DNA of 28,099 nt from a virus: IMG/VR virus record IMGVR_UViG_3300025168_000489, positions 1 to 28,099 of that record; one strand, written 5' to 3'. Under the pieces are notes generated by a model, which was given only the letters and a program-made list of their open reading frames with translations, searched no databases and was not told the origin of the DNA. The position numbers and the translations under genes were made by a program. Each line of letters opens with the position of its first letter. Within the stretch, counting starts at the first letter, position 1. Positions 1,059-21,100 of the stretch are shown one piece after another.

Positions 1059-1068
1059 GAGAATTAAG

Positions 1069-1254: not shown

Positions 1255-1278
1255 CATTATGAAAAAAGTTATTATAAT
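1251..1278 (+). promoter_or_regulatory. Perfect-consensus sigma70 promoter for the replication block
   Basis: TTGACA at 1251-1256, a 16-base spacer, then TATAAT at 1273-1278. Both hexamers are exact consensus and the surrounding DNA is extremely A+T rich. Start of transcription near 1285 would give a leader of about 130 bases before the small ORF at 1418 and the primase-helicase at 1495. Confidence 0.8.
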
Positions 1279-1405: not shown

Positions 1406-1417
1406 AGGAATAAAAAT

Positions 1418-5492: not shown

Positions 5493-5508
5493 TAAAATAT
5501 GCTATAAT
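5479..5508 (+). promoter_or_regulatory. Perfect-consensus sigma70 promoter for the ssDNA-binding protein
   Basis: TTGACA at 5479-5484, an 18-base spacer, then TATAAT at 5503-5508 with an extended TGC before it. Start of transcription near 5515 leaves a short leader carrying AAAAGGAG just before the ATG at 5537. The -35 overlaps the last codons of the nuclease gene. Confidence 0.8.
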
Positions 5509-5536
5509 ATAATTTTATCAATCAAAAGGAGTACAC

Positions 5537-5998: not shown

Positions 5999-6008
5999 CT
6001 AAAGGATA

Positions 6009-6040
6009 GTGGGAGACTGTTTGGCTGAGCAGTCTCTCAC
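6009..6040 (+). terminator. 11-bp hairpin: weak terminator or split ribosome binding site
   Basis: Bases 6009-6019 pair with 6030-6040 through 11 consecutive pairs, one of them G-U, around a 10-base loop. The sequence after it, ATTTTATATATG, is a poor U-tract, so it may be only a partial terminator behind the ssDNA-binding protein gene. The exonuclease ATG at 6050 has no Shine-Dalgarno sequence next to it. AAAGGA at 6001-6006 lies just before the hairpin, and folding would reduce its distance to the ATG from 43 to about 11 bases. Confidence 0.6.
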
Positions 6041-6049
6041 ATTTTATAT

Positions 6050-6907
6050 ATGAAAAAAATAGATACAATAGTAGAAGATATATATGGTTTGTTTGAGAAG
6101 AAGAACGAACATCTTACTGAGAAAGAAGTAGATAAATGTATAGATGATTTTGCTAGCTCGGTTAAAGTGCATGTAAAAGATTTCTTAAAACAGATGCCTC
6201 AAGATAAACCTAGGTTAAGATTATCAACTATAGGTAGACCAGACAGGCAACTGTGGTATGATTTTAAACAGCCTCGAACCGAGTCTTTCCCACCTAGTAC
6301 CAGGATTAAGTTTCTCTATGGTTATATCTTAGAAGAACTATTAATTATGCTTGCCTCTATCTCTGGACATAAGGTAACTCAACAACAGAAGCAAGTAGAA
6401 GTCGAAGGAGTTAAAGGACATCAAGATTGTTTTATAGATGACGTATTAGTAGATTGTAAGAGTGCCTCTGGTAGAGGATATAATAAATTTAAATATAATA
6501 ACTTATCAAGTGATGACCCCTTTGGATACATTCCTCAGATATCTGCATACGCAGAAGGTAATGGAGTAAATGAAGCTGGCTTTCTAGTTATTAATAAATC
6601 TACAGGAGAACTATGTTATACAAAAGTACATTCATTGGAGATGATAAATGCTAAAGACAGAGTTAAGAAAATTAAAGAAGTGGTTAAGTCTGATACTATA
6701 CCGGACAAATGCTACTCTGCTGTTGCTGATGGCAAGTCTGGGAATTATAAGCTTGCTACTGGTTGTATTTATTGTAGTCATAAGCATACTTGTTGGAGTG
6801 ATGCTAATAGTGGTGAAGGACTTCGTGCTTTTAATTATTCAACTGGTAAAAGATATCTCACACATGTTGAGAAAGCACCTAACGTAGAGGAAGTACATGA
6901 TAAATAG
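6050..6907 (+). CDS. RecB/Cas4-like PD-(D/E)XK exonuclease
   Basis: The 285-residue protein has RecB-family nuclease motifs in order: GYILEELL with Glu95, GHQDCFIDD with Asp126, LVDCKSAS with Asp135 and Lys137, and PQISAYAE with the QxxxY pair Gln163 and Tyr167. The C-terminus has CIYCSHKHTC (Cys239-x2-Cys242-x5-Cys248), the same spacing as the Fe-S cysteine triad of Cas4-type nucleases; Cys30 or Cys221 could be the fourth ligand. It probably degrades DNA for nucleotide recycling or recombination, like T7 gp6 in role. The start ATG at 6050 lacks an adjacent ribosome binding site (see the hairpin at 6009-6040). It overlaps the homing endonuclease start by 11 bases. Confidence 0.85.
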   Translation: MKKIDTIVEDIYGLFEKKNEHLTEKEVDKCIDDFASSVKVHVKDFLKQMPQDKPRLRLSTIGRPDRQLWYDFKQPRTESFPPSTRIKFLYGYILEELLIMLASISGHKVTQQQKQVEVEGVKGHQDCFIDDVLVDCKSASGRGYNKFKYNNLSSDDPFGYIPQISAYAEGNGVNEAGFLVINKSTGELCYTKVHSLEMINAKDRVKKIKEVVKSDTIPDKCYSAVADGKSGNYKLATGCIYCSHKHTCWSDANSGEGLRAFNYSTGKRYLTHVEKAPNVEEVHDK

Positions 6908-7598
6908 TCATTGGACTTGTTATGGCACAGAAAAATCTTTTGTGCCTAACGAGGATAAGTTTGGTTTTGTTTATATTATAACAAATACTAAGAATGGTAA
7001 GGCCTATGTAGGATGTAAACAATATTACATAGGTAAATCTAAGAAGGAATCTAGATGGCAGACTTATACAGGTTCTTCTAAATATTTAAATGAAGATATT
7101 AAAAAGATAGGTAAAAAATATTTTACATTTGAAGTAATAGCAGAGTATAAAAACAAAAGAAGTTTACGTTACTATGAGATGTACTATCAAGTAAAGTGGA
7201 ATGTTCTTACTGCTACTGTAGAAGGTAGTGATAAGCCTGCATTTTATAATTCATATGTTGGTGGTAAGTTTTATAGGCCTATTGAAAGTTATATGCCTCA
7301 TACAGAAGAAACTATAAGAAAAATGCGTGAAGCTCAAACAGGAGAAAAACATCCTCTGTATGGTAAAAAACATAAAGAAGAAACTAAAATAAAAATGCGT
7401 GAAGCTAAATTAGGAGAAAACAATTATTGGTATGGTAAAAAACATACAGAAGAAACTAAAAATAAAATGCGTGAAGTTCACACAGGAGAAGACAATCCTA
7501 TGTATGGTAAAAAACATACAGAAGAAACTAAAAATAAAATGCGTGAAGCTTATTTTAAAAGAATAACAAAAGTAAAATATATTGACAATGAAGAATGA
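6897..7598 (+). CDS. GIY-YIG homing endonuclease with tandem NUMOD3 repeats
   Basis: A free-standing homing endonuclease of 233 aa. The GIY-YIG domain has VYI (25-27) and YVG (37-39), an Arg at 53 (SRWQTYTGSS) and a Glu at 94 (RYYEMYYQ) in the places of the catalytic Arg and Glu. Residues from about 135 to the end are four NUMOD3-type DNA-binding repeats of 24 aa (pattern GExxPxYGKKHxEETKxKMREA), encoded by 72-bp direct repeats. It is inserted between the exonuclease and the next gene and overlaps both by about 11 bases, so it adds little spacing. Such genes spread to the homologous site of related phages during mixed infection. Confidence 0.92.
   Translation: MINSHWTCYGTEKSFVPNEDKFGFVYIITNTKNGKAYVGCKQYYIGKSKKESRWQTYTGSSKYLNEDIKKIGKKYFTFEVIAEYKNKRSLRYYEMYYQVKWNVLTATVEGSDKPAFYNSYVGGKFYRPIESYMPHTEETIRKMREAQTGEKHPLYGKKHKEETKIKMREAKLGENNYWYGKKHTEETKNKMREVHTGEDNPMYGKKHTEETKNKMREAYFKRITKVKYIDNEE
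7299..7557 (+). repeat. 72-bp tandem repeats coding for NUMOD3 modules
   Basis: Repeat starts are at 7299, 7371, 7443 and 7515, spaced exactly 72 bp; the last copy is partial. Copies three and four are identical over their first 34 bases (7443-7476 and 7515-7548), which points to recent in-frame duplication. They code for the DNA-contacting repeats of the homing endonuclease. Confidence 0.9.
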
Positions 7599-7610
7599 AC
7601 CTGATATAAT
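7582..7610 (+). promoter_or_regulatory. Perfect-consensus sigma70 promoter for the nucleotide module
   Basis: TTGACA at 7582-7587, a 17-base spacer, then TATAAT at 7605-7610, with TGA directly before the -10 (extended -10). This is the best-matching promoter in the window. It lies across the end of the homing endonuclease gene and the start of the gene at 7588, so transcription would begin near 7617, inside that gene. The genes it can fully serve are the DUF3310 protein, ribonucleotide reductase and the SufT-like protein. Confidence 0.8.
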
Positions 7611-7935
7611 ACAGATAGAAAACTTATTCTATTCTGAACCTTACAACTCAGAGAAGAGATTGTTTTTGTCTGTAATACTACAAGCATTATTAGATGTATC
7701 AAAGAATGTTATTACATCTAATGATAAAGTAAACAAAGCACGAGCTGAGTCCTGGTTCTTTGCAGAGGTTGGAGTAACTTGCGAGAACTTTGAAACAGTT
7801 TGTGGTATGGCAGGAGTAACACCAAGTAAAGCTAGGTCATTTGCTTACAAGGTTATTAAGGCAGACAATAAAAAGTTTTTAAGAAATAGAATAAGAAGTG
7901 TATTAAGAGGTGATGATGACAAAGAAGAAAAATGA
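7588..7935 (+). CDS. Small helical, possibly DNA-binding protein, 115 aa
   Basis: ATG at 7588 is preferred over the in-frame TTG at 7582, which is part of the -35 box. No ribosome binding site is seen and the gene overlaps the homing endonuclease stop, so it probably depends on coupling. The middle and end (AESWFF, then ENFETVCGMAGVTPSKARSF) resemble a pattern frequent in phages of alphaproteobacteria, where a helix-turn-helix-like segment follows a conserved VC.xAG.xP motif. A short acidic tail (RGDDDKEEK) ends the protein. A DNA-binding or regulatory role is plausible, and the strong promoter inside the gene is notable. Confidence 0.65.
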   Translation: MKNEPDIIQIENLFYSEPYNSEKRLFLSVILQALLDVSKNVITSNDKVNKARAESWFFAEVGVTCENFETVCGMAGVTPSKARSFAYKVIKADNKKFLRNRIRSVLRGDDDKEEK

Positions 7936-8296
7936 TTTGACATTTGCAGAAAGTCATGCTAAACTATACAATGATATGATAACATTTGAGGAGCAAGAAA
8001 ACATGGGACAAATGGATGAGGCAATAAGAGAAACAGTTAAAGAACAAGGTTTTAAGAAAATAAATTTAGAGAAGGAAGCTATTATAGCTACAGATAGACA
8101 GGTAGGTGGAGACCATTACAAGACTTGTAAGATACAACCTGTTGATTATATTGTAGAAAATAACCTGACATTTCTTGAGGGTAATGTAGTAAAGTATATT
8201 ACAAGACACAGAAGAAAAGGTGAGGGTGCAAGAGACATTGAAAAAGTAATACATTATTGTGAATTAATATTGGAGAAAGATTATGGCAGGAAATAA
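7916..8296 (+). CDS. DUF3310 protein, related to T7 gp1.7 nucleotide kinase
   Basis: ATG at 7916 is chosen because AAGAGG (7905-7910) lies 5 bases before it; in-frame GTG 7910 and ATG 7913 are less well placed. The C-terminal half carries the DUF3310 signature: QVGGDHYKTCKIQPVDYI, then FLEGNVVKYITRHRRKG, then a helix with KVIHYCELIL. T7 gp1.7, a member of this group, phosphorylates dGMP and dTMP, so a role in making nucleotides is likely next to the ribonucleotide reductase. The N-terminal 60 residues are charged and variable. It overlaps the previous gene by 20 bases and the next by 14. Confidence 0.85.
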   Translation: MTKKKNDLTFAESHAKLYNDMITFEEQENMGQMDEAIRETVKEQGFKKINLEKEAIIATDRQVGGDHYKTCKIQPVDYIVENNLTFLEGNVVKYITRHRRKGEGARDIEKVIHYCELILEKDYGRK

Positions 8297-10208
8297 TTAT
8301 TTACCTACAGAGTATCAAACGTTTATACATGCGTCTAGATATGCACGTTGGTTAGAAGAAGAAGGTAGAAGAGAGAGTTGGATTGAAACAGTATCTAGAT
8401 TTAGTAACTTCTTTCAAGGACATTTAGATAAGAATTTAGGTGTTGTCTTACCTCCAGAAATATGGAGAAGAATAGAAGATAGTATTATAGGACTACAAGT
8501 AATGCCTTCTATGAGAGCATTGATGACAGCAGGGCCTGCGTTAGAGAGAGAAAATATATCAGGATATAATTGTTCTTATGCTCCTATAGATAGTCCACGT
8601 TCTTTTGATGAGATACTTTATATACTTATGAATGGAACAGGTGTAGGGTTCTCTGTTGAAAGAGAGGGTGTTAATCAATTACCTACTATACCTTATAGAG
8701 AGTTTGAACAAACAGAAGATGTTATATCTGTAGCTGATTCTAAAGAAGGATGGGCCAGAGCATTTAGAGATTTAATATCTTATCTTTATACTAATAGAAT
8801 ACCTAAAGTAAATGTAAGTAAAGTAAGACCTGCAGGTGCTAGGTTAAATACCTTCGGTGGTAGGGCTAGTGGGCCTCAACCTTTAGTTAATCTAATTGAT
8901 TTTACTATTAATAAATTTAAAGAAGCTAAAGGTAGAAAGTTATCCTCTATGGAGTGTCACGATATTGTGTGTAAGACTGGTGAAGTTGTGGTTGTTGGTG
9001 GTGTGCGTAGGTCAGCTCTTATATCTCTGTCTAATTTATCAGACCAGAGATTAAGGGTTGCCAAGTCTGGTGCTTGGTGGGAGACAAATCCTGAGAGAGC
9101 ATTAGCTAATAACTCAGTAGCATATACAGAGAAACCTGATGCAGGTATCTTTATGAAAGAATGGTTAGCTCTATATGAAAGTAAGTCAGGAGAACGTGGT
9201 ATCTTTAGTAGAGTATCTGCTCAAGCAAAAGCTAAAGAGAATGGTAGACGTAAGTCAGACTATGCGTTTGGTACTAATCCTTGTAGTGAGATTATACTTA
9301 GACCTAATCAGTTCTGTAATTTAACTGAGGTAGTATGCAGACCTACTGATACAGTAGATACATTAAAAGATAAGATAGAAGTAGCTACTATACTAGGTAC
9401 AATACAAGCTACACTTACTAACTTTGGTTATCTTAGAAAGAGATGGAAAGATAATACAGAAGAAGAAAGATTACTTGGTGTATCCTTAACAGGTATTATG
9501 GATAATAGTATACTATCTAGAAGAAGAACTACCTTACCAGAAACACTACAAGACATGAGACAGAAAGCTGTGACAGTAAACAAAGAGTGGTCAGAAAAAT
9601 TAGGTATACCACAATCAACAGCTATTACTTGTGTTAAACCTTCAGGTACAGTAAGTCAATTAGTAGATAGTTCTAGTGGTATACATGCTAGACATAATCC
9701 TTATTACATTAGAACAGTAAGAGGAGATAAGAAAGACCCTCTGACAGAGTTTATGAAAGACCAGGGTATACCTTGTGAAGATGATGTTATGAATGCACAT
9801 AATGCTGTGTTCTCTTTTCCTATGAAGGCAGATTCTAATGCTGTATTTAGAGATGCTATGACAGCTATAGAACAATTAGAGATATGGAAGTGTTATGCAG
9901 AGCATTGGTGTGAACACAAACCATCAGTAACTATATCAGTTAAAGAACATGAATGGATTAACGTAGGTAATTGGTGTTGGGATAACTTTGATGCACTATC
10001 TGGTATATCATTCTTACCTTTCTCTGACCATACATATCAACAAGCACCTTATCAAGACATAGATAAAGCAACCTATGAAGAGCTTGAAGCTAAGATGCCA
10101 AAGAATATTAATTGGTCTGAGCTTAGTAAGTTTGAGAAAGAAGATTCAACAAAAGGTTCACAGGAGTTAGCATGTACAGCAGGTTCATGTGAGTTGGTGG
10201 ATATATAA
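8283..10208 (+). CDS. nrdJ: Adenosylcobalamin-dependent class II ribonucleotide reductase
   Basis: The 641-residue enzyme reduces ribonucleotides to deoxyribonucleotides using vitamin B12 as radical generator, in the cytoplasm. All expected residues are present: Cys97 in GYNCSYAP, the active-site loop NPCSE (Asn332, Cys334, Glu336), Cys345 in QFCNLTEV, and the redox pair Cys631 and Cys636 in the tail CTAGSCEL. The 11-residue gap between Cys334 and Cys345 and the 5-residue gap in the tail match the monomeric Lactobacillus triphosphate reductase (Cys408/419 and Cys731/736). GVRRSALISLSN and VKPSGTVSQL are further family motifs. It overlaps its neighbours at both ends; its start has GGAGAAAG upstream. 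Confidence 0.95.
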   Translation: MAGNNYLPTEYQTFIHASRYARWLEEEGRRESWIETVSRFSNFFQGHLDKNLGVVLPPEIWRRIEDSIIGLQVMPSMRALMTAGPALERENISGYNCSYAPIDSPRSFDEILYILMNGTGVGFSVEREGVNQLPTIPYREFEQTEDVISVADSKEGWARAFRDLISYLYTNRIPKVNVSKVRPAGARLNTFGGRASGPQPLVNLIDFTINKFKEAKGRKLSSMECHDIVCKTGEVVVVGGVRRSALISLSNLSDQRLRVAKSGAWWETNPERALANNSVAYTEKPDAGIFMKEWLALYESKSGERGIFSRVSAQAKAKENGRRKSDYAFGTNPCSEIILRPNQFCNLTEVVCRPTDTVDTLKDKIEVATILGTIQATLTNFGYLRKRWKDNTEEERLLGVSLTGIMDNSILSRRRTTLPETLQDMRQKAVTVNKEWSEKLGIPQSTAITCVKPSGTVSQLVDSSSGIHARHNPYYIRTVRGDKKDPLTEFMKDQGIPCEDDVMNAHNAVFSFPMKADSNAVFRDAMTAIEQLEIWKCYAEHWCEHKPSVTISVKEHEWINVGNWCWDNFDALSGISFLPFSDHTYQQAPYQDIDKATYEELEAKMPKNINWSELSKFEKEDSTKGSQELACTAGSCELVDI

Positions 10209-10519
10209 TGACTGAAGATAATCTAAGAATAAATATTATAGATGCATTACAAAAAGTATATGACCCTGAGATACCAGTTTCTATATATGATTTAGGTTTA
10301 ATATATGATATAGATATAAAAAAAAATAAAGATGTAGATATTCTTATGACATTAACAACACCAAATTGTCCAGTAGCACAAGAGTTACCTCAACAAATAG
10401 AAGATGCAGTAGCAGCTTTAGAAGAAGTAAATAAAGTTCAAGTAGGTATTACTTGGGAGCCACCTTGGAGTCAAGAAATGATTTCAGAAAGTGCTAAACT
10501 TGAATTAGGATTAATTTAA
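10208..10519 (+). CDS. SufT-like (MIP18/DUF59) Fe-S maturation protein
   Basis: The 103-residue protein carries the DUF59 signature: YDPEIPVSIYDLGLIYDI (18-35), the LTTPNCPV motif with Cys54, and the end WEPPWSQEMISESAK. In cells, family members such as SufT help deliver Fe-S clusters to target proteins. The ATG shares its A with the reductase stop (TAATG), so it is coupled to that gene. The class II reductase needs no Fe-S cluster, so the client may be elsewhere, for example the cysteine-rich exonuclease at 6050 or a host protein. The family call is firm; the role in the phage is inferred. Confidence 0.9.
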   Translation: MTEDNLRINIIDALQKVYDPEIPVSIYDLGLIYDIDIKKNKDVDILMTLTTPNCPVAQELPQQIEDAVAALEEVNKVQVGITWEPPWSQEMISESAKLELGLI

Positions 10520-10549
10520 AATGAAGTTAGTAGATATATAATTTTTTTG

Positions 10550-10578
10550 TTGCATTGATTTTTAAATTATGTTATAAT
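10550..10578 (+). promoter_or_regulatory. Sigma70-type promoter, extended -10, for the surface-modification block
   Basis: TTGCAT at 10550-10555, a 17-base spacer, then TATAAT at 10573-10578 preceded by TGT. It has the same design as the promoter at 236-264. It lies in the 101-base gap after the SufT-like gene and gives a leader of about 35 bases with AAGGACAAGG before the ATG at 10621. Confidence 0.75.
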
Positions 10579-10620
10579 ATTTATATATCAAAGAAAATAA
10601 AAATATAAAGGACAAGGTAA

Positions 10621-10869
10621 ATGAAAATTATTTTAATATTAATATTAAGTTTAGTTGTAGTACAGTTGAAAGCAAATCCCTGGTTTGATTCAGTGGGATA
10701 TAGATACTATCATGATATGGATAATGAACATGATGGTTCTAAATTTAGAAGTTATGCTACTAAAAAATTATCTAACAGTGATAAATTAAAAATAGCATAC
10801 GAAAGAAAAAGAAGTGGTAGAGGTGTTGAAGGTGGCACTTGGTTTATTGATTATGAATGGAAGTTTTAA
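10621..10869 (+). CDS. Small exported protein, possibly beta-strand rich, 82 aa
   Basis: ATG at 10621 follows AAGGACAAGGTAA. Residues 1-18 form a typical signal peptide: MK, a long hydrophobic run (IILILILSLVVVQ), then LKA as a likely cleavage site. The mature 64 residues are rich in Tyr, Arg and Gly; the last 25 alternate polar and hydrophobic residues and end in WKF, as the last strand of outer membrane barrels does. With only a few strands it cannot form a full barrel alone. Being first in the block with glycosyltransferases, it could act at the cell envelope, for example in blocking superinfection. The family is not recognised. Confidence 0.75.
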   Translation: MKIILILILSLVVVQLKANPWFDSVGYRYYHDMDNEHDGSKFRSYATKKLSNSDKLKIAYERKRSGRGVEGGTWFIDYEWKF

Positions 10870-10870
10870 T

Positions 10871-11665
10871 ATGGGAATAAAAATTAGAAACGATATGGAT
10901 ACAGTATATATTGGTTATGACCCAAGAGAACATGCAGCTTATGAAGTGTTAAAGTTCTCTATAGAAATCAGAGCTAAGAACCCTGTAAGAATTGTGCCTC
11001 TTAAAAAAGATGCATTGATTAGAAATGGTATGTTTAAAAGAAAGTCTAACAAGATGGGCAAACAACAGTATGATGAGATAGATGGTAAACCTTTCTCTAC
11101 TGATTTTAGTTTTACTAGATTTCTTGTACCACATTTAAACTTATATGAAGGACTGGCATTATATATGGATACAGATATGTATTGTTATGGTGATATAACA
11201 GAACTATTTGATATGTGCAGAGAAAACTATTATCCTGTATGGGCAGTACATCATAAGTATAATGTTGAAAAAAGCATTAAGATGGATGGCCAAGCACAAG
11301 AACCTTATAATATGAAGAACTGGTCTAGCCTTATGATGTTTAATTGTGGTCATCATTATCTAGAAAATTTAAGTATTAATGCTATTAACACAGAGAAAGG
11401 TAGATGGTTACATACATTTAAATGGTTACCAGATGATTCTTCAGATGTAGGACAAATACCTGAAGAGTGGAACTGGCTTGATGGTCATTCACCAGAAGTT
11501 ATGAAACCAAAGATTGTACATTTTACAACAGGTGGGCCTTGGTTTGCAAATTGGAAACCTAGAGGAACTACTGAAGGCAAGTATGCTGTTAAGTGGTGTG
11601 AAGATGCTAGGTGGTTACAAATGAAAGGTATCATACCAAAAGAAAAGGATTACTTAATACAATGA
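10871..11665 (+). CDS. GT8-like glycosyltransferase, 264 aa
   Basis: ATG at 10871 is chosen: it comes right after the previous stop and has GGAAG 7 bases upstream; the in-frame ATG at 10853 and earlier starts lie inside the previous gene. The product shows a GT-A fold pattern: VYIGYDPREHAAYEVLKFSI at the start, FSFTRFLVPHL, then ALYMDTDMYCYGDI with the metal-binding DTD (100-102), and WSSLMMFNCGHH. The end has IVHFTTGGPW with His217. This fits family 8 sugar transferases acting with a nucleotide sugar. The acceptor is unknown. It overlaps the next gene in an ATGA arrangement. Confidence 0.85.
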   Translation: MGIKIRNDMDTVYIGYDPREHAAYEVLKFSIEIRAKNPVRIVPLKKDALIRNGMFKRKSNKMGKQQYDEIDGKPFSTDFSFTRFLVPHLNLYEGLALYMDTDMYCYGDITELFDMCRENYYPVWAVHHKYNVEKSIKMDGQAQEPYNMKNWSSLMMFNCGHHYLENLSINAINTEKGRWLHTFKWLPDDSSDVGQIPEEWNWLDGHSPEVMKPKIVHFTTGGPWFANWKPRGTTEGKYAVKWCEDARWLQMKGIIPKEKDYLIQ

Positions 11666-11889
11666 GAGAACTATCAAATACATTATATAAGTCCTTGAGA
11701 TGTTATTATAAAGCTGAAGTAAACAAAGCATTGTATCAACTTGATTTAGCATTTCAAAAACCAGTAGCAATAGGAGAACATCCAAAGATAGTAGAAGATT
11801 CTATTGTATTAATAAAACAATTAGCTGAAGCTGAAGAGGCTTTAGAAACATTAGAAAAGAATTTTGGAGCATATAATGAAAGAGATTAA
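11662..11889 (+). CDS. Small helical hypothetical protein, 75 aa
   Basis: ATG at 11662 overlaps the glycosyltransferase stop (ATGA), so it is translationally coupled; the only Shine-Dalgarno match (AAGGAT) is rather distant. The 75 residues are helical, with a final heptad-like segment (KQLAEAEEALETLEKN). No signal peptide or membrane segment is seen. Its place inside the sugar-transfer block suggests a partner of these enzymes, but nothing in the sequence confirms it. Confidence 0.7.
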   Translation: MRELSNTLYKSLRCYYKAEVNKALYQLDLAFQKPVAIGEHPKIVEDSIVLIKQLAEAEEALETLEKNFGAYNERD

Positions 11890-14179
11890 TATTGTTACAT
11901 CTTTTAATGAAACAATTTTAAAAGATACAGCAGTACATTTATTAAACTCCACTAAAGAAAGTTTAGATACAAGTATTAATTTTACTGCTTACTATCATGA
12001 TTGTAAGATAGATGCCTACTCATTACCTGATTATACTTATAAAAGTTTACATGATGTTAAAGACCATGAAAGTTTTTTAAAAAGATATGCAGAACATGAT
12101 GGTACAGAAGAAGGTAAGATACCATACAATGAAAAGTTAGATGCATTGAAGTGGTCACATAAAGTATTTGCCTTAACAGAGAAAGCATTTGAGTTAGCAG
12201 AAAAAAGTAAAGAAGCTGGATGGTTAATATGGATTGATGCTGATTCTTATTTAAAGAAAAGATTAACTAAACAAGATATATTATCTATGTTAAATGATAA
12301 AGCAGATATTGTTTATAATCCTGATGAACCTTTCTTTATGGCTTTTAATTTAGATAAGCAACCTACTGTAGATATACTAGCAGATTTACGTGGTGCATAT
12401 ATACTAGGTGAGATGATTAAGTACAGAGAGTGGCATGATTATTATATATTATCTAGACTGATAACTATTTATCAAGCACATGGTATGAAAGTAGAACAGA
12501 TAAATACTATGAATGATTTCTTTTATCATTTTGCTGGTAGACCAGACTTTTCTAAGATATCTATTAGAAATAGTAAAGGTGAAAGAGCATTTCCTTTAAC
12601 AGATAATGTTTCTCAAGATATTAAACCTAATAGATATCAACAAATATCTCAGATAATGAAAGAATATAAACCAAAGATTGTAATAGAAACTGGAACATGG
12701 AATGGTGGAAGAGCTATAGAGATGGCCCTGACTGCATTTAATTATACTGATACATTTACTTATCATGGTTATGATTTATTTGAAGATGCTACTATTGAAA
12801 CAGACCATGAAGAGTTTAATGCAAAGGCACATAATAAAATGTCTGCAGTTAAAAATAGATTAAAAGAATTTGCAGAACATATGAAAGAAAATAAAAATAA
12901 AACTTTTACATTTGAATTAAATAAAGGTAATACTAGAAACATATTAAAAGACCAAGGTGAATGGTTTGATATGGCTCTTATTGGTGGTGGTAATAGTATT
13001 AAAACTATAGCTCATGATTATGATTGTGTAAAGAAAACACCTATAGTTATGATTGACCATTACTTTAGAGAAGATGATGATAAGATGGCACCTAATGAGT
13101 CTTACTGTGGTGTAAATAAACTATGGGATAAATTAAAAAAGAATAAAGAAATACGTAAACATGTATTACCTTCAGGTGATAAGGTAAAAGATGGTGGCTT
13201 TACACATTTTATGATTGTGTTAAGTGATAAAGAATTACCTAATATACCTGCTGATTTACAAAGAGTTCCTATTGTAGTTAATCCTAGAGATTGTGTACCT
13301 AAAGATTATATACGTGGTAATATAAAAGATAACATGAAATTAATACCAGAAAGTAAATTTATACAGAAATGTAAAACACATAATGAACATGGTATTATTA
13401 TTTCTGGTGGACCTAATATAGATTATGATGAGTTAAAAGATACTATTAAAAAGTATCCTAATTCTTTAACTATATGTGTTAAGCATGCATATCCTGGTCT
13501 TATAAAGAATGGTATAAAACCAAATGCTTGTATACTATTAGACCCACGTTCTATTGAAGGTGAAAGTACACATGGTATTAAGAGAAAAGATTTATTAAAA
13601 AATCCTGATGCAGATACAAAGTTTTTAGTTGCATCTATGACTGACCCTTCTGTTACTAATTATCTTATAGAAAATAAAGCAAACATATGGGGTTGGCATG
13701 CATTCACAGAATCATTACGAGATGATGATGATAGAAAACATGCAATTAAAAATAATCAAGTAAAGATTAGAGAAGACGTAGGTTTACCTGTAGGTGCTAC
13801 CTTAATTACCGGTGGTACTTGTGCAGCTATGAGAGCTATTGGTATGTTACATACTATGGGTTTTAGAAACTTACATTTATTTGGTTTTGAATCATCATTA
13901 AAAGATGACCCTACTGATGATATGAAAAAAGAAACTACTGGTGCTGATGATGAACCTAAAAGACCAAAGTATTTTCAAGTATCGGTAGAAAATAAAGCTT
14001 ATTGGACTACTGGTGAATTATTAGCAATGGCTCAAGATTGTGAGAAAACATTTGCTGATAAGACTATGGGTATTAATTATTATTTTTATGGTAAAGATAG
14101 TTTAGTATTTGAAATATGGGAGGGTGCACAAAAGAAAGAAACATTACCTGATTATAAGGATATGTTAAATGCACAATAG
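11876..14179 (+). CDS. Three-domain protein: GT-A-like, methyltransferase-like and DUF115
   Basis: ATG at 11876 is preferred because GGAG lies 7 bases before it; product 767 aa. The N-terminal third resembles a GT-A glycosyltransferase with IWIDADSYL (119-127, a DxD motif). The middle has ETGTWNGGRAIEMA (271-284), like a Rossmann SAM-binding loop, and later WFDMALIGG and VMIDHYF, as in class I methyltransferases of the TylF/cephalosporin hydroxylase type. The C-terminal part (about 506-675) matches DUF115/MptE-like proteins: GIIISGGPNID, ACILLDPRS, and GATLITGGTCAAMRAIGM. DUF115 occurs in flagellin glycosylation (Maf) proteins. Together these suggest transfer and modification of a sugar, possibly nonulosonic acid-like. 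No signal peptide: cytoplasmic. Confidence 0.8.
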   Translation: MKEINIVTSFNETILKDTAVHLLNSTKESLDTSINFTAYYHDCKIDAYSLPDYTYKSLHDVKDHESFLKRYAEHDGTEEGKIPYNEKLDALKWSHKVFALTEKAFELAEKSKEAGWLIWIDADSYLKKRLTKQDILSMLNDKADIVYNPDEPFFMAFNLDKQPTVDILADLRGAYILGEMIKYREWHDYYILSRLITIYQAHGMKVEQINTMNDFFYHFAGRPDFSKISIRNSKGERAFPLTDNVSQDIKPNRYQQISQIMKEYKPKIVIETGTWNGGRAIEMALTAFNYTDTFTYHGYDLFEDATIETDHEEFNAKAHNKMSAVKNRLKEFAEHMKENKNKTFTFELNKGNTRNILKDQGEWFDMALIGGGNSIKTIAHDYDCVKKTPIVMIDHYFREDDDKMAPNESYCGVNKLWDKLKKNKEIRKHVLPSGDKVKDGGFTHFMIVLSDKELPNIPADLQRVPIVVNPRDCVPKDYIRGNIKDNMKLIPESKFIQKCKTHNEHGIIISGGPNIDYDELKDTIKKYPNSLTICVKHAYPGLIKNGIKPNACILLDPRSIEGESTHGIKRKDLLKNPDADTKFLVASMTDPSVTNYLIENKANIWGWHAFTESLRDDDDRKHAIKNNQVKIREDVGLPVGATLITGGTCAAMRAIGMLHTMGFRNLHLFGFESSLKDDPTDDMKKETTGADDEPKRPKYFQVSVENKAYWTTGELLAMAQDCEKTFADKTMGINYYFYGKDSLVFEIWEGAQKKETLPDYKDMLNAQ

Positions 14180-14816
14180 AGATAAACCTTCTCAAGATTA
14201 TGTAGACCTATTAACTGAATATAAAGAATTACATAAAGACCCAAAGTATTTTAATGGTATATGTTTAATAACACATCTAAATACAGTAACACATATTATG
14301 GTAGAGGAAGGTGTTAAAAGTTTATTAGATTATGGTTGTGGTAAAGCTCTATTATATGATGAAGAAAAATATAAAACAATGAGACTTAATAAACGAGGTC
14401 AAGTTTTACCTAAACCTTTACAAGAAATATGGCAACTAGATTATCATGCCTTATATGACCCTGCATATCCCAAGCATAGTAAATTACCTAAAGGTAAGTA
14501 TGATGCTGTAGTATGTACAGACGTAATAGAACATATAGATGAGAAAGATGTTGACTGGATTCTAGAAGAAATATTTTCTTATAGTAGAAAGTTTGTCTTA
14601 CTTACTATTGCCTGTTATAAAGCATTAAAAACATTTAAAGATGGTAGAAATGTACATGTTAATATAAAAAATCCAAAACATTGGAAAGAAAAATTATTAC
14701 AGTTACATGATAAACATCCACATTTAAATATACATTATAGTTTAGATGTTATTGAAGATGAGAAAGCAGAAAAGCCTGTGTCAATAACGACATGGGAAAA
14801 AATAGAAAGGAAATAA
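14169..14816 (+). CDS. Class I SAM-dependent methyltransferase, 215 aa
   Basis: ATG at 14169 follows AAGGAT (14155-14160) and overlaps the previous gene by 11 bases. The SAM-binding motif I is SLLDYGCGKALLY (51-63) and the acidic motif after it is YDAVVCTDVIEHID (111-124), both typical of Rossmann-fold methyltransferases. The target (sugar, lipid or protein) cannot be read from the sequence; context with glycosyltransferases favours a sugar. DNA methyltransferase motifs such as DPPY are absent. Confidence 0.85.
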   Translation: MHNRDKPSQDYVDLLTEYKELHKDPKYFNGICLITHLNTVTHIMVEEGVKSLLDYGCGKALLYDEEKYKTMRLNKRGQVLPKPLQEIWQLDYHALYDPAYPKHSKLPKGKYDAVVCTDVIEHIDEKDVDWILEEIFSYSRKFVLLTIACYKALKTFKDGRNVHVNIKNPKHWKEKLLQLHDKHPHLNIHYSLDVIEDEKAEKPVSITTWEKIERK

Positions 14817-14817
14817 T

Positions 14818-15216
14818 ATGGCACTACTAAGTTTGATTGGACCTGCTACAAAGTTATTAGGTAAGTTCATAGAAGATAAAGATGTAAAAAATAAACTTGC
14901 TCATGAAGTAGCTACAATGGCAGAGAAGCATGCACAAGAATTAGCTAAAGGACAATTAGCTATAAACAAAGAAGAAGCAAAGTCTGGTAATATATTTATT
15001 GCCGGCTGGAGGCCCTTCATAGGTTGGGCATGTGGGGTTGCCTTAGTGTGGCATTTTATTGCAGCTCCGTTTATTATTTTCTTTGCAGCACTATTCGGTG
15101 CAACATTACCAGCACTACCTGAGTTTGATATGGGAAGTTTAATGACTGTATTAATGGGTATGCTTGGACTTGGAGGTCTTAGGACTTTTGAGAAATATAA
15201 AAAAGTTACAAAATAA
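14818..15216 (+). CDS. Holin of the 3TM type
   Basis: The 132-residue protein has a helical N-terminus with KHAQELAKGQLAINKEEA, then FIAGWRPFIGWACGVAL (60-76), the characteristic Gly-Trp-Arg-Pro segment of the GTA/3TM holin family, followed by further hydrophobic segments (FIAAPFIIFFAALFGA and MTVLMGMLGLGGL) and a basic tail. Holins form the inner membrane lesion that lets the lysozyme reach the cell wall. AAAGGAAA precedes the ATG. The lysozyme candidate (16540-17694) is on the other strand, so lysis genes are split between two operons. Confidence 0.85.
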   Translation: MALLSLIGPATKLLGKFIEDKDVKNKLAHEVATMAEKHAQELAKGQLAINKEEAKSGNIFIAGWRPFIGWACGVALVWHFIAAPFIIFFAALFGATLPALPEFDMGSLMTVLMGMLGLGGLRTFEKYKKVTK

Positions 15217-15228
15217 AAAGGAATAATT

Positions 15229-15390
15229 ATGAAACAAACAATTTATTTAGCATCATTAGTATTGATATTAATTTTTGTATTTATATTTGCAAGAACTGGT
15301 TCAGAAATAATAAATGAAAATATACCTACTAAAAGCAGTAATGTTCTTGAAAAAGAATATGAAGAATATGATATGAGTAACTATAGATAG
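15229..15390 (+). CDS. Small membrane protein, 53 aa
   Basis: ATG at 15229 has AAGGA (15218-15222) upstream. The 53-residue product has one N-terminal hydrophobic helix (IYLASLVLILIFVFIFA) and a polar, acidic C-terminal part ending EKEYEEYDMSNYR. It could be a signal-anchored periplasmic protein. Its place after the holin suggests a lysis role, such as an inner membrane spanin partner, but it is shorter than usual spanins and the family is not recognised. Confidence 0.65.
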   Translation: MKQTIYLASLVLILIFVFIFARTGSEIINENIPTKSSNVLEKEYEEYDMSNYR

Positions 15391-15662
15391 TGGCAGAGTT
15401 TAAAAAACATACCCCTTATAAAACTAAAGATTGGTATCTCAAGTGGGCATCATCTTTAGTTTTAATTGTGGGTATCATGCTTACATCACATAATATCTAC
15501 CCATATAATTTATATGTTAGTTCTGTGGGTTTATTAGGTTGGACTATTGTAGGATTCTGGTGGAATGATAGAGCAATTATGATTGTAAATCTTGTATCGC
15601 TAGTAATATATGTAACAGGTCTAATCAATTATTTATTATTTACAATGACGAGTATAGATTAA
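15390..15662 (+). CDS. Multi-pass small membrane protein, 90 aa
   Basis: The start is GTG at 15390, sharing its G with the previous stop (TAGTG), and has no strong ribosome binding site, so coupling is likely. The product has three hydrophobic segments (SSLVLIVGIMLTS, YVSSVGLLGWTIVGFWW, and MIVNLVSLVIYVTGLINYLL). The W-rich core, with WNDRA before the last helix, is reminiscent of a small membrane protein often carried by marine phages, whose function is unknown. Between holin and small terminase, a lysis-related or host-membrane role is possible. Confidence 0.75.
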   Translation: MAEFKKHTPYKTKDWYLKWASSLVLIVGIMLTSHNIYPYNLYVSSVGLLGWTIVGFWWNDRAIMIVNLVSLVIYVTGLINYLLFTMTSID

Positions 15663-15663
15663 A

Positions 15664-16122
15664 ATGGCACTAAATGAACAACAAGAAAGATTTTGTCAGT
15701 CGTATATCCTACATAGGAATGCCTCGGAAGCTGCTAGAGCTGCTGGGTATTCACAAGAACATGCAGCACGACAAGGGCACAGACTATTACAAAATGAAGA
15801 GATTGTCGAAAGAATTACAGAGCTCGAACAAAACTTAACTACTGATGTAGATGTTATCTCTGAGATAGAAAAGCAGTATGAGTTTGCCAAAGCTAATGGT
15901 CATACTAATAGTGCGATTAAAGCTCTAGAGTTATTATCTCGAATCAGAGGGACTCAAGAAGAGAAAGAAGATATGACAGACCCTGTAAAACTTAAAGAAG
16001 ATTTAGTAAAGTCTGCTAAGATAATGGGTAAAGATTTTTATTTTGATATAGCTAAAGAAGCTGGGTTTCTAGATAGAGGTAACAAGGTAGACAATGTAGA
16101 TAATAAAGAGCACAAAAAATAA
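15664..16122 (+). CDS. terS: Terminase small subunit
   Basis: The 152-residue protein begins with QQERFCQSYILHRNASEAARAAGYS, the helix-turn-helix pattern of Terminase_2-type small subunits, then RQGHRLLQNEEIVERITELEQN; the rest is helical and charged, ending in a basic Lys-rich tail. It recognises phage DNA and feeds the large subunit, which is not in this window. It starts one base after the previous stop and has only a weak ribosome binding site. It is the last gene of the + strand block, and its 3' end overlaps that of the converging gene at 16069-16515 by 54 bases. Confidence 0.88.
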   Translation: MALNEQQERFCQSYILHRNASEAARAAGYSQEHAARQGHRLLQNEEIVERITELEQNLTTDVDVISEIEKQYEFAKANGHTNSAIKALELLSRIRGTQEEKEDMTDPVKLKEDLVKSAKIMGKDFYFDIAKEAGFLDRGNKVDNVDNKEHKK

Positions 16123-16515
16123 TACACAACCACCTATAATAGTATTCTCTACCATTTTTCGTTGTTTTCTTTTTGCTTCTTCCTCTGCTTCTTTTTTATC
16201 TTTTCTTATCTGTGCTTGTATTCTTAGCACTTCATTCCAAGCATTAGGGCCATGAGAATAATTAACAAAGGTACGTAATTCTTTCTCCATATGTTGTGCT
16301 TCTTTTAAAGCAGCAAAAGTTTCTAATGCTTCTTCTTCTACAGAACCAAACAACCTTTTCTTTTTTTTCTTATGCCCATCCTTAACTGCTTGAATCGCAC
16401 CCATCCATCTGCCCAAATCCTTGGACATACTTTCTACTTGCTTGCCTACTTTAAATCCTGATACAATAGTTTTGTATGCAGTCGTAGCTATACCTATCGC
16501 TGTAACTGGGTCCAT
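16069..16515 (-). CDS. Membrane protein with C-terminal anchor, 148 aa
   Basis: ATG at 16515 (reverse strand) follows AAGAGGCAAAC. The product has a mildly hydrophobic N-terminus (MDPVTAIGIATTAYKTIVSG), a Lys-rich centre (GHKKKKKRLFG), a long charged helix with KDKKEAEEEAKRKQRK and a C-terminal transmembrane segment (IIGGCVLFFVLFIIYIVYLV). This layout is seen in a protein common near the lysis and virion genes of marine podoviruses; its function is unknown. It is the last gene of the - strand operon and converges on the small terminase gene. Confidence 0.75.
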   Translation of the reverse strand: MDPVTAIGIATTAYKTIVSGFKVGKQVESMSKDLGRWMGAIQAVKDGHKKKKKRLFGSVEEEALETFAALKEAQHMEKELRTFVNYSHGPNAWNEVLRIQAQIRKDKKEAEEEAKRKQRKMVENTIIGGCVLFFVLFIIYIVYLVTSI

Positions 16516-16539
16516 GTTTGCCTCTTAATTCTTAATGGA

Positions 16540-17694
16540 TTATATAAATCTTGGTTGTCTTTTATAGGGGTCTGATTCTATCATGCCTCCTGATTGTTTT
16601 TCTATTATTTTATTATGTTTTTTTTTATTATAAAATCCTTTTCTTTTTAAAACTTCTTCAAGATAATATTTTAATTTTTCTTCCGACACTGAGTCTTTTA
16701 TAAAAGGTTCTATTAAATTTTTATAAGTGTCCTCATTTCTTTTACTTAGATATTTTCTTACTAAAACACCTTTGTTATTTTTTCGTTTAAAAGTTCTATC
16801 TGTGGCATTTTCTATTATATCAGTAATATTATTATTAGCTAGTGCTTTGGCTAAATTTTTAGCAGGTGCATTATTTAAAGAAAAATCTATTAATAAATTT
16901 TGTTTCCATTTTTCTAAATCTTTAAAATCTTTTTTAATATTATTTTCTTTCATTACTTGATTAAATTCTCTAATTGCTCTATTAACACCTCTTTCACCTT
17001 GTATATCAAGTCTAGCTATAGTATCAGATTGTTCATCAGTAACTCCTTTACTAACATCTATTCCATATACCATCTTAGTAGTTATTTCATCACCTAAAAG
17101 TTTATGACCATAAGCAATATCATCTGTTTTTCCTCCTTCAGCACCTGGACCTAATTTTTTTTTAATATCTTCATTATTTTTAAAATGATTTAAAAAGTAG
17201 TCATCCACTATAAAATCACTTTGTGATGTAATAGATTTTTCTTTTGCTTTAGGTTCTTCAGTAACTGCTGGCTCACGAGAACTAAAATCTGGAATTATTT
17301 GACCAGGTTTAGGTTCAAATTTATTTTTCTCTTGACCTCCAGTAGGTAAAGCAGGAACAGGTTTTTTCTTTTCTTTATCTAACAAACTTTTTCTAGCTTG
17401 CTCTGTAAGAACTTTATTAGCTATAGTATCATCTAATTCACTTTGTTTTGGAACTTTTAAATTATTTTTTAAACTAGTCAAACCAGGTATTGTTTTTTGA
17501 TTTAAATTAGGTGTATAAATTTGTTCATTTAATACAGAAGGATTTCTACTATCATCTGTTATAGCTACACCTCTTGTTGCCTCACTATCTACAGAACCTA
17601 TAGGTATTTCTTCTTGCTCACTTTTTATATCTCCTAAAGGTGCATATAAAGACATTAATGCTTTTGATAAACTATCATATTCTTTTTCAGACAT
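16540..17694 (-). CDS. GH24/pesticin-like lysozyme with N-terminal extension, 384 aa
   Basis: Start with AAAGGAA upstream on the reverse strand. The first 160 residues are low-complexity, polar and Pro-rich. The lysozyme domain spans about 165-340: GPGAEGGKTDDIAYGHKLLG with catalytic candidate Glu186, Asp191/Asp192 and His197, then GVTDEQSDTIARLDI, which matches the T4 lysozyme pattern of Glu, Asp and a following helix of the type GVxTxDEAxxLFxxDV. It should cleave peptidoglycan. The C-terminus ends SGGMIESDPYKRQPRFI, a short tail found on virion proteins of marine phages. The long extension and place beside virion genes suggest it may be a virion-carried lysin as well as, or instead of, the endolysin. 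Confidence 0.75.
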   Translation of the reverse strand: MSEKEYDSLSKALMSLYAPLGDIKSEQEEIPIGSVDSEATRGVAITDDSRNPSVLNEQIYTPNLNQKTIPGLTSLKNNLKVPKQSELDDTIANKVLTEQARKSLLDKEKKKPVPALPTGGQEKNKFEPKPGQIIPDFSSREPAVTEEPKAKEKSITSQSDFIVDDYFLNHFKNNEDIKKKLGPGAEGGKTDDIAYGHKLLGDEITTKMVYGIDVSKGVTDEQSDTIARLDIQGERGVNRAIREFNQVMKENNIKKDFKDLEKWKQNLLIDFSLNNAPAKNLAKALANNNITDIIENATDRTFKRKNNKGVLVRKYLSKRNEDTYKNLIEPFIKDSVSEEKLKYYLEEVLKRKGFYNKKKHNKIIEKQSGGMIESDPYKRQPRFI

Positions 17695-17706
17695 ACTTTT
17701 TTCCTT

Positions 17707-17913
17707 TCATCTGTACACTCTTACTTTTTTATTTTTTAAATCTACTTCTACAGGTTTACATATAGCTGTATATCTTTTCTTTGTTACTGGGTCAGCCGGT
17801 TGTTTCATTACCCTAGATGCAAAATATCTACATCTATTAATGTCAGCAAACATCATATTACTTTCTTGTTGTGCTCTACCTAAGTATATCATTAATATAA
17901 ATACTGTGGTCAT
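17707..17913 (-). CDS. Small protein with N-terminal hydrophobic segment, 68 aa
   Basis: The ATG overlaps the stop of the gene at 17910-18158 by 4 bases (ATGA). The product starts with a short hydrophobic stretch (MTTVFILMIYLG) that could be a signal or anchor, then a region with two cysteines (NRCRYF and ICKPVEV) and a basic end. If exported, the two cysteines could form a disulphide bridge. The pattern is common among marine phages next to the lysis and virion genes, but no function is known. Confidence 0.7.
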   Translation of the reverse strand: MTTVFILMIYLGRAQQESNMMFADINRCRYFASRVMKQPADPVTKKRYTAICKPVEVDLKNKKVRVYR

Positions 17914-18158
17914 TTACCTATTGACCTTCTTATCATATCATCTATCTTACCTTCAAGTCTATCAAATCTTTGCATGAGTTGTGTCATATCATCTTTAACA
18001 TCTTCTTTTGTAGCATACATCAATGCCATGTTCTCTTTAGACTTTGCTAGTTCATCTTTAACTTTACCAATAGAAGCAGACGTAGAACGTATCCACCATA
18101 GAAAACCACCTATTGCCATAGTTAATATTGCATTCCATATCATTGTCATATCTGCCAT
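17910..18158 (-). CDS. Membrane-anchored coiled-coil protein, 82 aa
   Basis: ATG at 18158 on the reverse strand follows TAGGAGATTAAA. The N-terminus holds one membrane helix (IWNAILTMAIGGFLWWI), and the rest is a charged coiled coil (KVKDELAKSKENM, DMTQLMQRFDRLEGKIDDMI). The topology resembles small phage membrane proteins near lysis genes (for example hemolysin XhlA-like or spanin-type), but the exact family is not certain. It starts one base after the stop of the 1296-residue protein gene. Confidence 0.7.
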   Translation of the reverse strand: MADMTMIWNAILTMAIGGFLWWIRSTSASIGKVKDELAKSKENMALMYATKEDVKDDMTQLMQRFDRLEGKIDDMIRRSIGK

Positions 18159-18159
18159 T

Positions 18160-21100
18160 TTAATCTCCTATATTTACTTCTGGTAATTCTGTTGATAAAT
18201 TTTTTAAATTATACTTACGATAAATACTATCAAAAGCATTACGTAGTCTTGGAATTTGTGTAACTAAATCTCTATTTTCTCTAGCATATGTTTTCCAAAA
18301 AGACTTATCAAAACGTGGAGCTTGAAATTTTCCTTTGGTAATTAAATTTATTTCTTTTTTAGATAGACCACCTGCTTGACGAACTTGTCGAGACATTAAT
18401 ATTTTCTTAGCTTCAACAGGACTTTTAAATTTTAATAAACTATTATACAGTTGATAAATACCTTCCTGTGCTACAAACTGTTCTTCAATTCCTTCTTGAT
18501 ATAACTTTCTCATATTCTGTAAAGAAAAGTTTGCATCTCTAGCACTTAATCTTTGTTTAATAGTAGATGATGTAATATTATTATTTCTATTAGCATTACT
18601 TAATAAAGTCTTAGCAGCAAAAGAAACATTCTTTATTGGATTAACAGTAGTTTCTTTTGTTCCTAATCCAAATATACCTAAAGGTCCTGTAAAGTTTAAA
18701 CCTACTTCCGACAGATAACCAGCAACACTACTTGCATCTCTCATTAGTTTTCTTTTTTCACCAAAGTATAAAGGGTCTAGTTTAGATTGTAAGTAAGAAC
18801 CACCTTGGCCTCCTATTGGTTTACTTAATGCATCTAATGTTTCATATGCTCCAACATCTCCAGCTAGCTCTCTTATATTTTTTACAACACCAGGTTCTGA
18901 TATCTTATATGCTTTAAATAAAAAGTCTGCTGCACGTAAATCATTTTCTTCTTTAACATAACCTAATATATTTTTAGCATAATCTAAAACTAATGACTCA
19001 CCAACAAAAGGAGAGGCAGTATTCTTAATTACTTGTAACATTTTTTCATCTAAGTTTTTAGTTATGTCTTCACCATTTGCTGCACCTACTAATAAAGGAC
19101 TAATAATATCTAGTACATATTGGTCAGGGTTGTTATAACTTAAATCAGTAACAGCATATTCTTTTTCACCATCTTTATTTATATATTCTCTAACTTGTAG
19201 AGCATGATTTTTAGACCACTCTGGTAAAGACTGACGAATAAAATCCATAACTTTATCTGTACCTTGAGTAGTATTATATACATAAGCAGCTAGTGCCGGT
19301 GCTGCAGCTACTGCCCCTTGAGACAGTAAACGATTAGCACCAGACTTAATTAAACCTCTACCAGATTTAGTAGACATACCTAATTCAAAACCATCTTTAA
19401 TTTCTTGAGAGCCCATCTTTAAAACTCTATACTTATTACGTAAGTTCTCTGCAGGAAAAGCAGTAAAAGAACCAAGTATAGGTATGCCTCTCATCTTCTC
19501 TAATACTTTTGGTATTCTAGAATATACCGGCATAACATTTAATGCATTTGAAATAGCTACTTCATCTACTAAAAAATCATCAAATGCTTTTGTATCATCT
19601 GGTGTAACATATACTGGCTGATTTTCTTTAACTGGTTTGCCTGTTGATAAATCAATTACAGGTTCTTCTGTATCTGGGTCAAGCTTTGTAACTCTTTTAG
19701 TTCCTTTAATTGGTATACCATAATCTCTTTCATAATTAGCTCTCATGATTTGTTTTTGTTCAGGCGACATATCATCAAAGATTTTTTGAAACTTAGCTTT
19801 CTCACTTAAATAACTTGCTATCTTACCTAAATCATCTGTCTTTGTATATATCTGTTCTGCTTTTCTAGCAGTTTTTTTAAAGCCTGCTGTTTTTTCTAGA
19901 GAACTAACTCCCATTGAACCTACACGTACAATATTTCTAGCTAGTACACCTTGTATACCTTTTATATTATTCTCATTAATATCTGCAAAGTCTGATAATC
20001 TATTAGCAATTTGATTTAATTCCACATTAGTACCTTGCACACCTAATCTTCTTAGCTTATCAAACAAAGCATCTTTATCTTTTTTAGATTTTGTTACTAC
20101 CACTTTAGCTAACTTACCTATACCTGTCCAGTTACCTGAATTAGCCACAGTAGCTAAAGCACCTAGTGCATTTCTTACGTGAGCAAAAGGATTGTATACT
20201 GTCTTACCTTTTTTAATATAACCTTGAGTCGCTGCAATAGCTTGAGCAAAAGGACCTAGTGCTTCATTCTTAGATAAAAATCCTGTTCTATCTGTCATAA
20301 CTTTTATCTTAGCTGCTAATTCTTTTGGTATAAATATTTCTTGTGCAGGTGCTGCATAAATATCACCACGAACTTGAAAAGGTGTTTCATCATATAAAGA
20401 CTTTTCAAATGCAGAAGCTTTAGAAGTTACAAGAGGAACAGCATCTTCACCTAATAGTTCTTTAGCTTTAAAAGCAGAGTCAGCTCTTACTGCCAAGCCT
20501 CTGTTTAATAAACTATCAGATAACTGTGCAGCTATTCTTAAATCAGCAACAGGTTCTACAATACCAGCTATAGTTTCAGTAGCTCTTAATGCTGGGTTTT
20601 GATTTAAACCATAGATTGTTTTAATAACATCAGGCAATTCTTGTTTTGATTTTAATGCACCATACTTACTTCTGCTTTGTAAACTTGGTGTATATAATCT
20701 TTGCATTTCAGTATTAATAATTTTATTTAATTTGTTTTCATCATAAATACCTTCTTTACTTTGTTTACTAACAAATTCTTTTAATGTACCATCTGCATTT
20801 CTAAGTCCTAGTTTTTTACCTAGAACCTCATCTTCTACTGCAAGATTACGAAACTCAACAATAGTATCTCTATTTCGTGCATCTTTTTTCCAAAGATTAA
20901 AATCTTGTCTACCTTTCTTTGTAAACTTTTCAAAGATATCCCTTACATAATTATTTTTTAAACCATAGATTGTTTTAGTTTTTTCAGATATTTGTAATCG
21001 TGGGTCATCTAATTCTTTTCTAACTTTAGTTCTAAGACGAGTAAAGTCTCTTAGACTGTTAGCTAAATCAGGACTTCTTAATCTAACATTTCTTCTAGCT

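Follow-up and report, generated by a model that had tools for sequence, protein, structure and literature searches.

A virus record of 28,099 bases from IMG/VR, IMGVR_UViG_3300025168_000489 (positions 1-28,099; the whole stretch is called the window in the following), contains a block of genes at 10621-14816, the core of which consists of three genes, those for a GT8-like glycosyltransferase, a 767-aa fused protein and a stand-alone methyltransferase. The three genes are tentatively read as a soluble cytoplasmic glycan cassette that most likely decorates a virion protein, with a probability put at slightly less than one half (about 0.48). The five open reading frames (ORFs) of the block abut closely or overlap, and the holin gene starts directly after them at 14818. 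Their coordinates agree with an earlier account made from the letters of the window alone (the preliminary description), which had listed five tightly packed genes. The features are as follows.

10547..10578, + strand: promoter-like element, a TTGTTGCA box and an extended -10 TGTTATAAT, 3' of the genes for ribonucleotide reductase (RNR) and an Fe-S protein
10621..10869, + strand: 82-aa exported protein (exp82) with a short hydrophobic N-terminus and a C-terminal Phe; a passenger, not core
10871..11665, + strand: GT8-like glycosyltransferase, 264 aa from ATG, with the DxD in MDTDMY; core
11611..11889, + strand: 92-aa protein, phrog_1811; a passenger
11876..14179, + strand: 767-aa fused protein, from ATG, predicted as GT-A-like (~1-232), O-methyltransferase fold (~238-453) and MptE-like/Maf-type (~470-740); core
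14169..14816, + strand: stand-alone class I methyltransferase, 215 aa; core in all clades seen except the deepest

Conserved gene order and joint divergence of the core

The relatives of the fused protein are found in uncultured phages. In IMG/VR, 424 stretches matched the protein or a part of it, 80 of which were retained, and the fused gene, whole or in part, is carried by 129 distinct contigs; the sample, selected for resemblance to exp82 and to the fused protein, is not a random one. The GT8 gene is located directly upstream of the fused gene in all 120 contigs that reach far enough, and the methyltransferase gene directly downstream in 74 of 83, the nine contigs without it all belonging to one deep clade with 42-44% identity. 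Upstream there is an RNR gene, belonging to one or the other of two types, in 61/61 contigs, and terS lies downstream in 65/65. Also the distances between the proteins go together: the pairwise distances of the fused protein correlate with those of the methyltransferase at 0.93, of GT8 at 0.88 and of RNR at 0.47 (46 distinct sequences), and with those of terS at 0.63 (38) and of the holin at 0.67 (28), all of these correlations being given without a p-value. The genes are not scattered among the relatives, and of the glycan-building and methylating block that had been proposed, GT8, the 767-aa protein and the methyltransferase stand as a unit that keeps its order, diverges together and is, as regards the last two, partly exchanged jointly, whereas exp82 and the 92-aa protein are not needed for it.

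The joint exchange is seen in a comparison of the relatives L004 and L024. Their similarity is 94-99% in the part that runs from RNR to the end of GT8, falls to 67-94% over the fused gene and up to base 304 of 645 in the methyltransferase gene, and is 89-100% beyond. The fused gene, together with roughly half of the methyltransferase gene, has thus been exchanged as a single allele, with matching sequence on either side. With the relative 3300031957_000640, the window shares a 1296-aa protein at 99%, a 511-aa fragment at 97% and two further late proteins at 82-83% identity, but the fused protein at only 79% and the methyltransferase at 74%, while with L004 it shares the fused protein at 94%, the methyltransferase at 96% and the 1296-aa protein at 39%. 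These contrasting identities indicate that the allele is not tied in its movement to the late genes observed. Outside the cassette, a fast-evolving 384-aa protein without Pfam or PHROG match is encoded at 16540-17694 on the minus strand, being 39% identical to its counterpart in 3300031957_000640 (dN/dS about 1.0) with flanking genes at 91% and 99%. At 5537-5995, a gene like those for single-stranded DNA-binding proteins is 65% identical to two relatives with neighbours at 95-99%, which looks like another local allele swap.

In 50,697 deposited phage records no fused gene was found at E 1e-5, and with E up to 5 there was a single weak match (0.03, residues 4-190). As the gene or a part of it occurs in 129 distinct contigs of uncultured origin, it falls into a blind spot of culture collections. 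A scan of one genome per species with alignment A2 gave one locus, L108. This locus is a phage-like contig of 33 kb with the same gene order that is filed under a Sneathiella metagenome-assembled genome, and in which terS is followed by an exported protein with a lipobox-like stretch (recognised by eye).

Domains of the core proteins

The MptE-like family (PF01973), formerly named DUF115, is matched in the 767-aa protein at 1.1e-15 (58.3 bits, cut-off 34.6), and it is matched in 41/41 aligned fused-protein sequences (E 0.01). These 41 sequences, with identities down to 44%, form the alignment A4, from which AlphaFold2 produced a model with a mean pLDDT of 85 and a pTM of 0.50, values according to which the domains are good and their arrangement is uncertain. 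A first model from 19 close sequences had been poor (pLDDT 53) and was not used. When the A4 model was compared with known structures by VIA-align, residues ~238-453 matched chains of the catechol O-methyltransferase (COMT) family with Z 14.6-15.8. Fold and S-adenosylmethionine (SAM) motif of a TylF/Methyltransf_24/COMT-type domain are both present, and the SAM motif E-[TVI]-G-[TA]-W-N is found in all 105 sequences that cover it fully. The top structural match is the Maf protein 5mu5 of Magnetospirillum, which aligns with residues 231-750 at Z 18.8 over 352 residues and ends at Maf residue 503 of 632; its root-mean-square deviation of 14.4 means that the Rossmann and the central domains do not superpose as a single body. 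The DUF115 and methyltransferase-like domains that the preliminary description had seen in this protein are thus both recovered, the one by Pfam and the other by structure comparison.

The GT-A-like domain is only moderately supported and is the least secure of the three folds, because the Foldseek rows that point to it (alpha-1,3-galactosyltransferase at E 7.8e-6, and LARGE1) come without model ranges. VIA-align barely probed this region, its list being taken up by matches to the methyltransferase domain. Of the 106 sequences that reach the site, 105 retain the DxD, the exception being L108 with NTN. For the DxD glycosyltransferase part that had been postulated, the motif, the GT-A rows and a weak GT2 match in 1/41 aligned sequences speak in favour. 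In searches of solved structures by sequence, alignment A1 found nothing and A4 found only weak O-methyltransferase matches (best E 0.082). The top viral structural match is a protein of an uncultured phage with 25% identity over 800 columns, so that something with such an architecture has already entered a database, though the search of deposited phage genomes found none. In the literature searched, including the available part of PMC9599517, the fusion is not described.

Of the separate enzymes, the 264-aa protein matches GT8 (PF01501) at 6.8e-4 with 19.7 bits, under the Pfam cut-off of 24.3, and phrog_28018 at 5.3e-49; its GT8 identity is weaker than had been claimed, though the PHROG match is strong. 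The 215-aa protein matches Methyltransf_23 at 2.4e-6 with 27.8 bits, just above the cut-off of 27.0, and phrog_24759 at 3e-22. Profile comparison gives a probability of 1.3% for the GT-A domain with the GT8 gene and of 17% for the fused methyltransferase domain with the separate methyltransferase, and in neither pair, therefore, is one member shown to be a copy of the other.

The name MptE-like would also fit a different activity: the domain could be a pterin or other diphosphokinase, and the block would then belong to small-molecule metabolism beside the ribonucleotide reductase. The HPPK of M. jannaschii indeed matches residues 469-739 (Z 14.8, VIA-align), and the RNR gene is upstream in every one of the 61 contigs. 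It is nevertheless very unlikely that the domain has such a role, since it shares its polypeptide with a GT-A-like domain, goes along with GT8 and the methyltransferase much more tightly than with RNR, and has a Maf protein as its top structural match. The PseD flagellin-modification model also matches a relative (L093, 4.1e-6), although far under its cut-off and not in the window protein.

Loss of the metal-site motif and probable hand-over of methylation

The motif columns of the methyltransferase domain are readable in 100 of 109 distinct fused sequences. The motifs IDGGH and FDDFY are intact in 12 of these, and in the other 88 the first Asp is lost, the sites reading GGG then N or D, and D then H or N (IGGGN and IDHYF in the window protein). 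The lost Asp corresponds to the first metal ligand in the motif of the COMT/TylF families (IDGxH, then a DD/DN pair). Nine of the 12 sequences with intact motif have room downstream, and in none of these nine is there a methyltransferase gene, while 72 of the 88 sequences with lost motif have that gene in their stretch and the remaining 16 end too early. In a midpoint-rooted tree of 41 sequences, the clade with intact motif is sister to all others. The pattern suggests that methylation was probably handed over from the fused domain to the separate gene, about once, and we read it as a loss of the metal site in the internal domain after a separate methyltransferase had joined. As the association comes down to about one event on this tree, it is no statistical proof. 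The domain is probably still active in the deepest clade, where its motif is intact, and in the clade of the window it is probably a scaffold or a SAM-binding remnant. The natural series of intact and decayed domains, without and with the separate gene, allows a direct test of such an enzyme hand-over.

Possible acceptors of the glycan

We infer the activities of the enzymes, the order of their steps, the donor sugars and the acceptor. The GT8-like and GT-A-like enzymes would use nucleotide donors for the transfer of sugars, the MptE-like domain of Maf type would transfer a sugar to or within the chain, and the separate methyltransferase would methylate the glycan. Maf enzymes place a sugar straight on Ser/Thr of a surface protein. 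In the phage, the acceptor would be a virion protein that is made in the same cytoplasm, and the particle would exit the cell decorated. GT8, the fused protein and the methyltransferase have no hydrophobic stretch at transmembrane level, and it is this lack of membrane enzymes, together with the head-gene neighbourhoods of homologues, that favours a cytoplasmic protein as acceptor, most simply a virion protein. Glycans on phage particles are reported for the mycobacteriophage Che8, on its major capsid proteins, in the available part of PMC11256854.

Among deposited phages, GT8 relatives occur in 18 records (E 1e-5) and methyltransferase relatives in 21 (E 0.01); 16 records are common to both sets, with the matched stretches at most 300 bases apart. 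In ctDrO704, the pair is enclosed by the major head protein, about 3 kb away, and a virion protein, and in Tetraselmis virus S20 the methyltransferase is found within a glycosyltransferase cluster in the region from major head protein to head closure. A weaker methyltransferase homologue of CRP-9 (6e-5) is encoded directly 3' of the major head protein. In the Ccr phages, the cluster is bordered by the lysis genes on one side and, on the other, by a long gene with the annotation tail protein or hypothetical.

A less likely alternative is that the cassette modifies a glycan of the host surface, on lipopolysaccharide (LPS) or a surface protein, and thereby blocks the adsorption of competing phages or stops the progeny from sticking to debris. 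GT8 genes of pelagimyophages have been read as LPS modification, as a hypothesis, in the available part of PMC7029224. The allele swap with flanks alike resembles a serotype change, an exported protein is often encoded at or near the block, and the neighbourhoods in DSL-LC06 and DLP_6 are non-structural. Against a host target it can be said that the core proteins include no membrane-bound transferase or flippase, that homologues are found in the head-gene regions of three other phages, and that the exported protein is separable. From the envelope modification of the preliminary description, with superinfection exclusion or virion decoration as its purpose, a glycan block of three genes remains; the envelope as its target is not established, and the neighbourhoods of the deposited homologues lean to the decoration of virions.

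Several observations weigh against a virion protein as the acceptor. In the group of the window, the cassette lies between RNR and holin/terS on the strand opposite to the structural genes, and as the major capsid gene lies outside the window, a matching change of the acceptor could not be looked for. In DLP_6, the homologous pair is found in a tRNA/GroES region, and in DSL-LC06 the neighbours of the methyltransferase homologue have names that refer to LPS and capsule. Caulobacter phages account for 14 of the 16 records common to both sets, four of these 14 being RefSeq copies, and the others are ctDrO704 and DLP_6, so that about three lineages stand behind the pairing. When the deep clade is included, in a wider set of 61 sequences, the fused protein correlates in its distances at 0.79 with terS and at 0.90 with GT8, and the value for terS means that part of the co-inheritance is due to common ancestry.

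DNA is a substrate of glycosyltransferases in some phages, and as the cassette adjoins genes of nucleotide metabolism, it could also glycosylate or hypermodify the phage DNA. This is very unlikely, however, as no nucleobase-modifying enzyme was recognised by Pfam among the 20 window proteins scanned. No DNA glucosyltransferase is among the VIA-align matches listed, which proves nothing.

Passenger genes and promoter-like element

The genes of exp82 and of the 92-aa protein are separable passengers. In 55 contigs with context on both sides, exp82 is placed upstream in 15 and downstream in 18 and is not found in 22, and the 92-aa gene separates GT8 from the fused gene in 17, has another upstream position in 21, and is not found in 17. 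As both genes move or are not found, the idea that all five genes combine into one system has been rejected. In relatives, the 92-aa gene is also located upstream of RNR. In HTVC115P, a homologue adjoins the gene for the large terminase, and no further gene of the block was found there.

The exp82 protein has its hydrophobic peak at residue 1, no Pfam or PHROG match, and no homologue in deposited phages at E 0.01. Out of 105 distinct contigs with exp82, there are ten stretches that show no GT8 gene and no fused gene. RNR is present in three of the ten (L184, L198 and L212), which end near exp82, and the other seven have no match to any further gene of the window. In L213 (5926-6180), exp82 is encoded at 75% identity in a 12-kb stretch without the block, together with CobS/CobT-, baseplate- and myophage-like genes as judged by ORF reading, as if it were a small exported gene that moves between phage groups. 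Homologues with a longer N-terminal hydrophobic segment are encoded 3' of a methyltransferase or holin gene in L080 (9411-9776), L081 (7814-8167) and L083 (8988-9350), and this placement may hint at a role related to lysis.

The own extended -10 promoter that had been assigned to the block is present, with a caveat. An extended -10 is located at 10570-10578, and its combination with TTGTTGCA and a spacer occurs once in the window with 0 expected, the pattern having been derived from the window itself. The combined pattern is also found in 100 of 220 loci, with some contigs counted repeatedly, and sits just 3' of RNR wherever positions were compared. The extended -10 alone is unremarkable, as it occurs 9 times in the window versus 4.0 expected, a number that 3 of 100 shuffles also attain. 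When 9800-16200 was scanned for promoters in general, there was no excess (34 versus 40.5 expected), and the site at 10570-10578 was not listed. In the gap between RNR and GT8 of L009, L015, L016, L029 and L038, a short ORF for a very basic peptide stands in place of exp82 behind the same promoter-like element.

The window record and its surroundings

The record is probably a fragment of a larger genome, as Terminase_6C, the only large-terminase family tested, has no match in it, whereas seven of the eight related contigs, 44-62 kb in length, do have one. The small phage of the preliminary description, understood as a complete genome, was for this reason abandoned. The DNA polymerase of the window is closest to SAR11 phages (47.6%), and its RNR is closest to roseophages and HMO-2011 (62-64%); a DNA search with positions 1-20000 matched no deposited phage. 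The site directly after RNR (10208-10519 in the window) is variable in content among relatives, with an Fe-S assembly protein, an Hsp20, a 2-oxoglutarate-Fe(II)-oxygenase-like protein (by eye), or little at all. A GIY-YIG endonuclease with NUMOD3 repeats is encoded at 6897-7595 and has 64% and 92% identity in two relatives that are otherwise mostly closer.

Comparison with known systems

With the Maf proteins (5mu5, PseD), the fused protein shares a Rossmann/methyltransferase-like domain that is followed, in the same order, by an MptE-like/Maf_flag10 domain, and it differs from them in its additional N-terminal GT-A-like domain and in being encoded by a phage. The N-terminal domain of Maf is described as a degenerate Rossmann domain with weak methyltransferase motifs in the available part of PMC11339370. 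As a sequence homologue of the phage methyltransferase domain, this domain was considered and is unsupported. Maf_flag10_N (PF20157) was found neither in the 41 fused sequences (E 0.01) nor in four relatives (E up to 5), with three Maf-type controls at 5.5e-27 or below, and the profile probability with an alignment of seven Maf-type sequences was 0.6%, this alignment including L223, apparently a wrong-frame or extended ORF. Since the profiles do not support descent, a link of this kind with Maf is kept only within a bolder reading, which is speculative and rather unlikely. According to it, GT-A, O-methyltransferase and Maf-type domains in one polypeptide would make up a machine for the glycosylation of virion proteins, its alleles would be swapped together with part of the partner methyltransferase between constant flanks and would vary the sugar coat, and the intact clade would represent the active ancestral state of the decayed domain, perhaps even that of the bacterial Maf Rossmann domain.

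Among phages, the Caulobacter Ccr phages have GT8-like and methyltransferase homologues side by side, and S20, which is not among the records with GT8 relatives, has its methyltransferase homologue in a glycosyltransferase cluster. The clusters of CcrC1 (4e-5) and S20 (0.0021) also contain a weak MptE-like match, both below cut-off, but in these phages the genes are separate, without a three-domain fusion, and lie in structural or tail/lysis regions. In Mosig EXVC030M, a homologue of the GT-A domain (5.1e-20) adjoins a GT8 homologue (9.3e-64) a few kb from RNR genes; there is no fused protein, and the neighbours are FkbM methyltransferases and a sulfotransferase. The O-antigen conversion of the gtrABC type works with a membrane flippase and membrane-bound transferases, and this membrane trait is absent from the core proteins, which are devoid of transmembrane-level stretches. 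Che8 is similar in being a phage with both glycosyltransferase genes and reported capsid glycans (available part of PMC11256854). If the reading as a decoration cassette is true, many uncultured phages carry dedicated glycan genes, the target of which is probably their own particle, in contrast to the GT8 genes of pelagimyophages, which have been assigned in print, as a hypothesis, to the LPS of the host (available part of PMC7029224).

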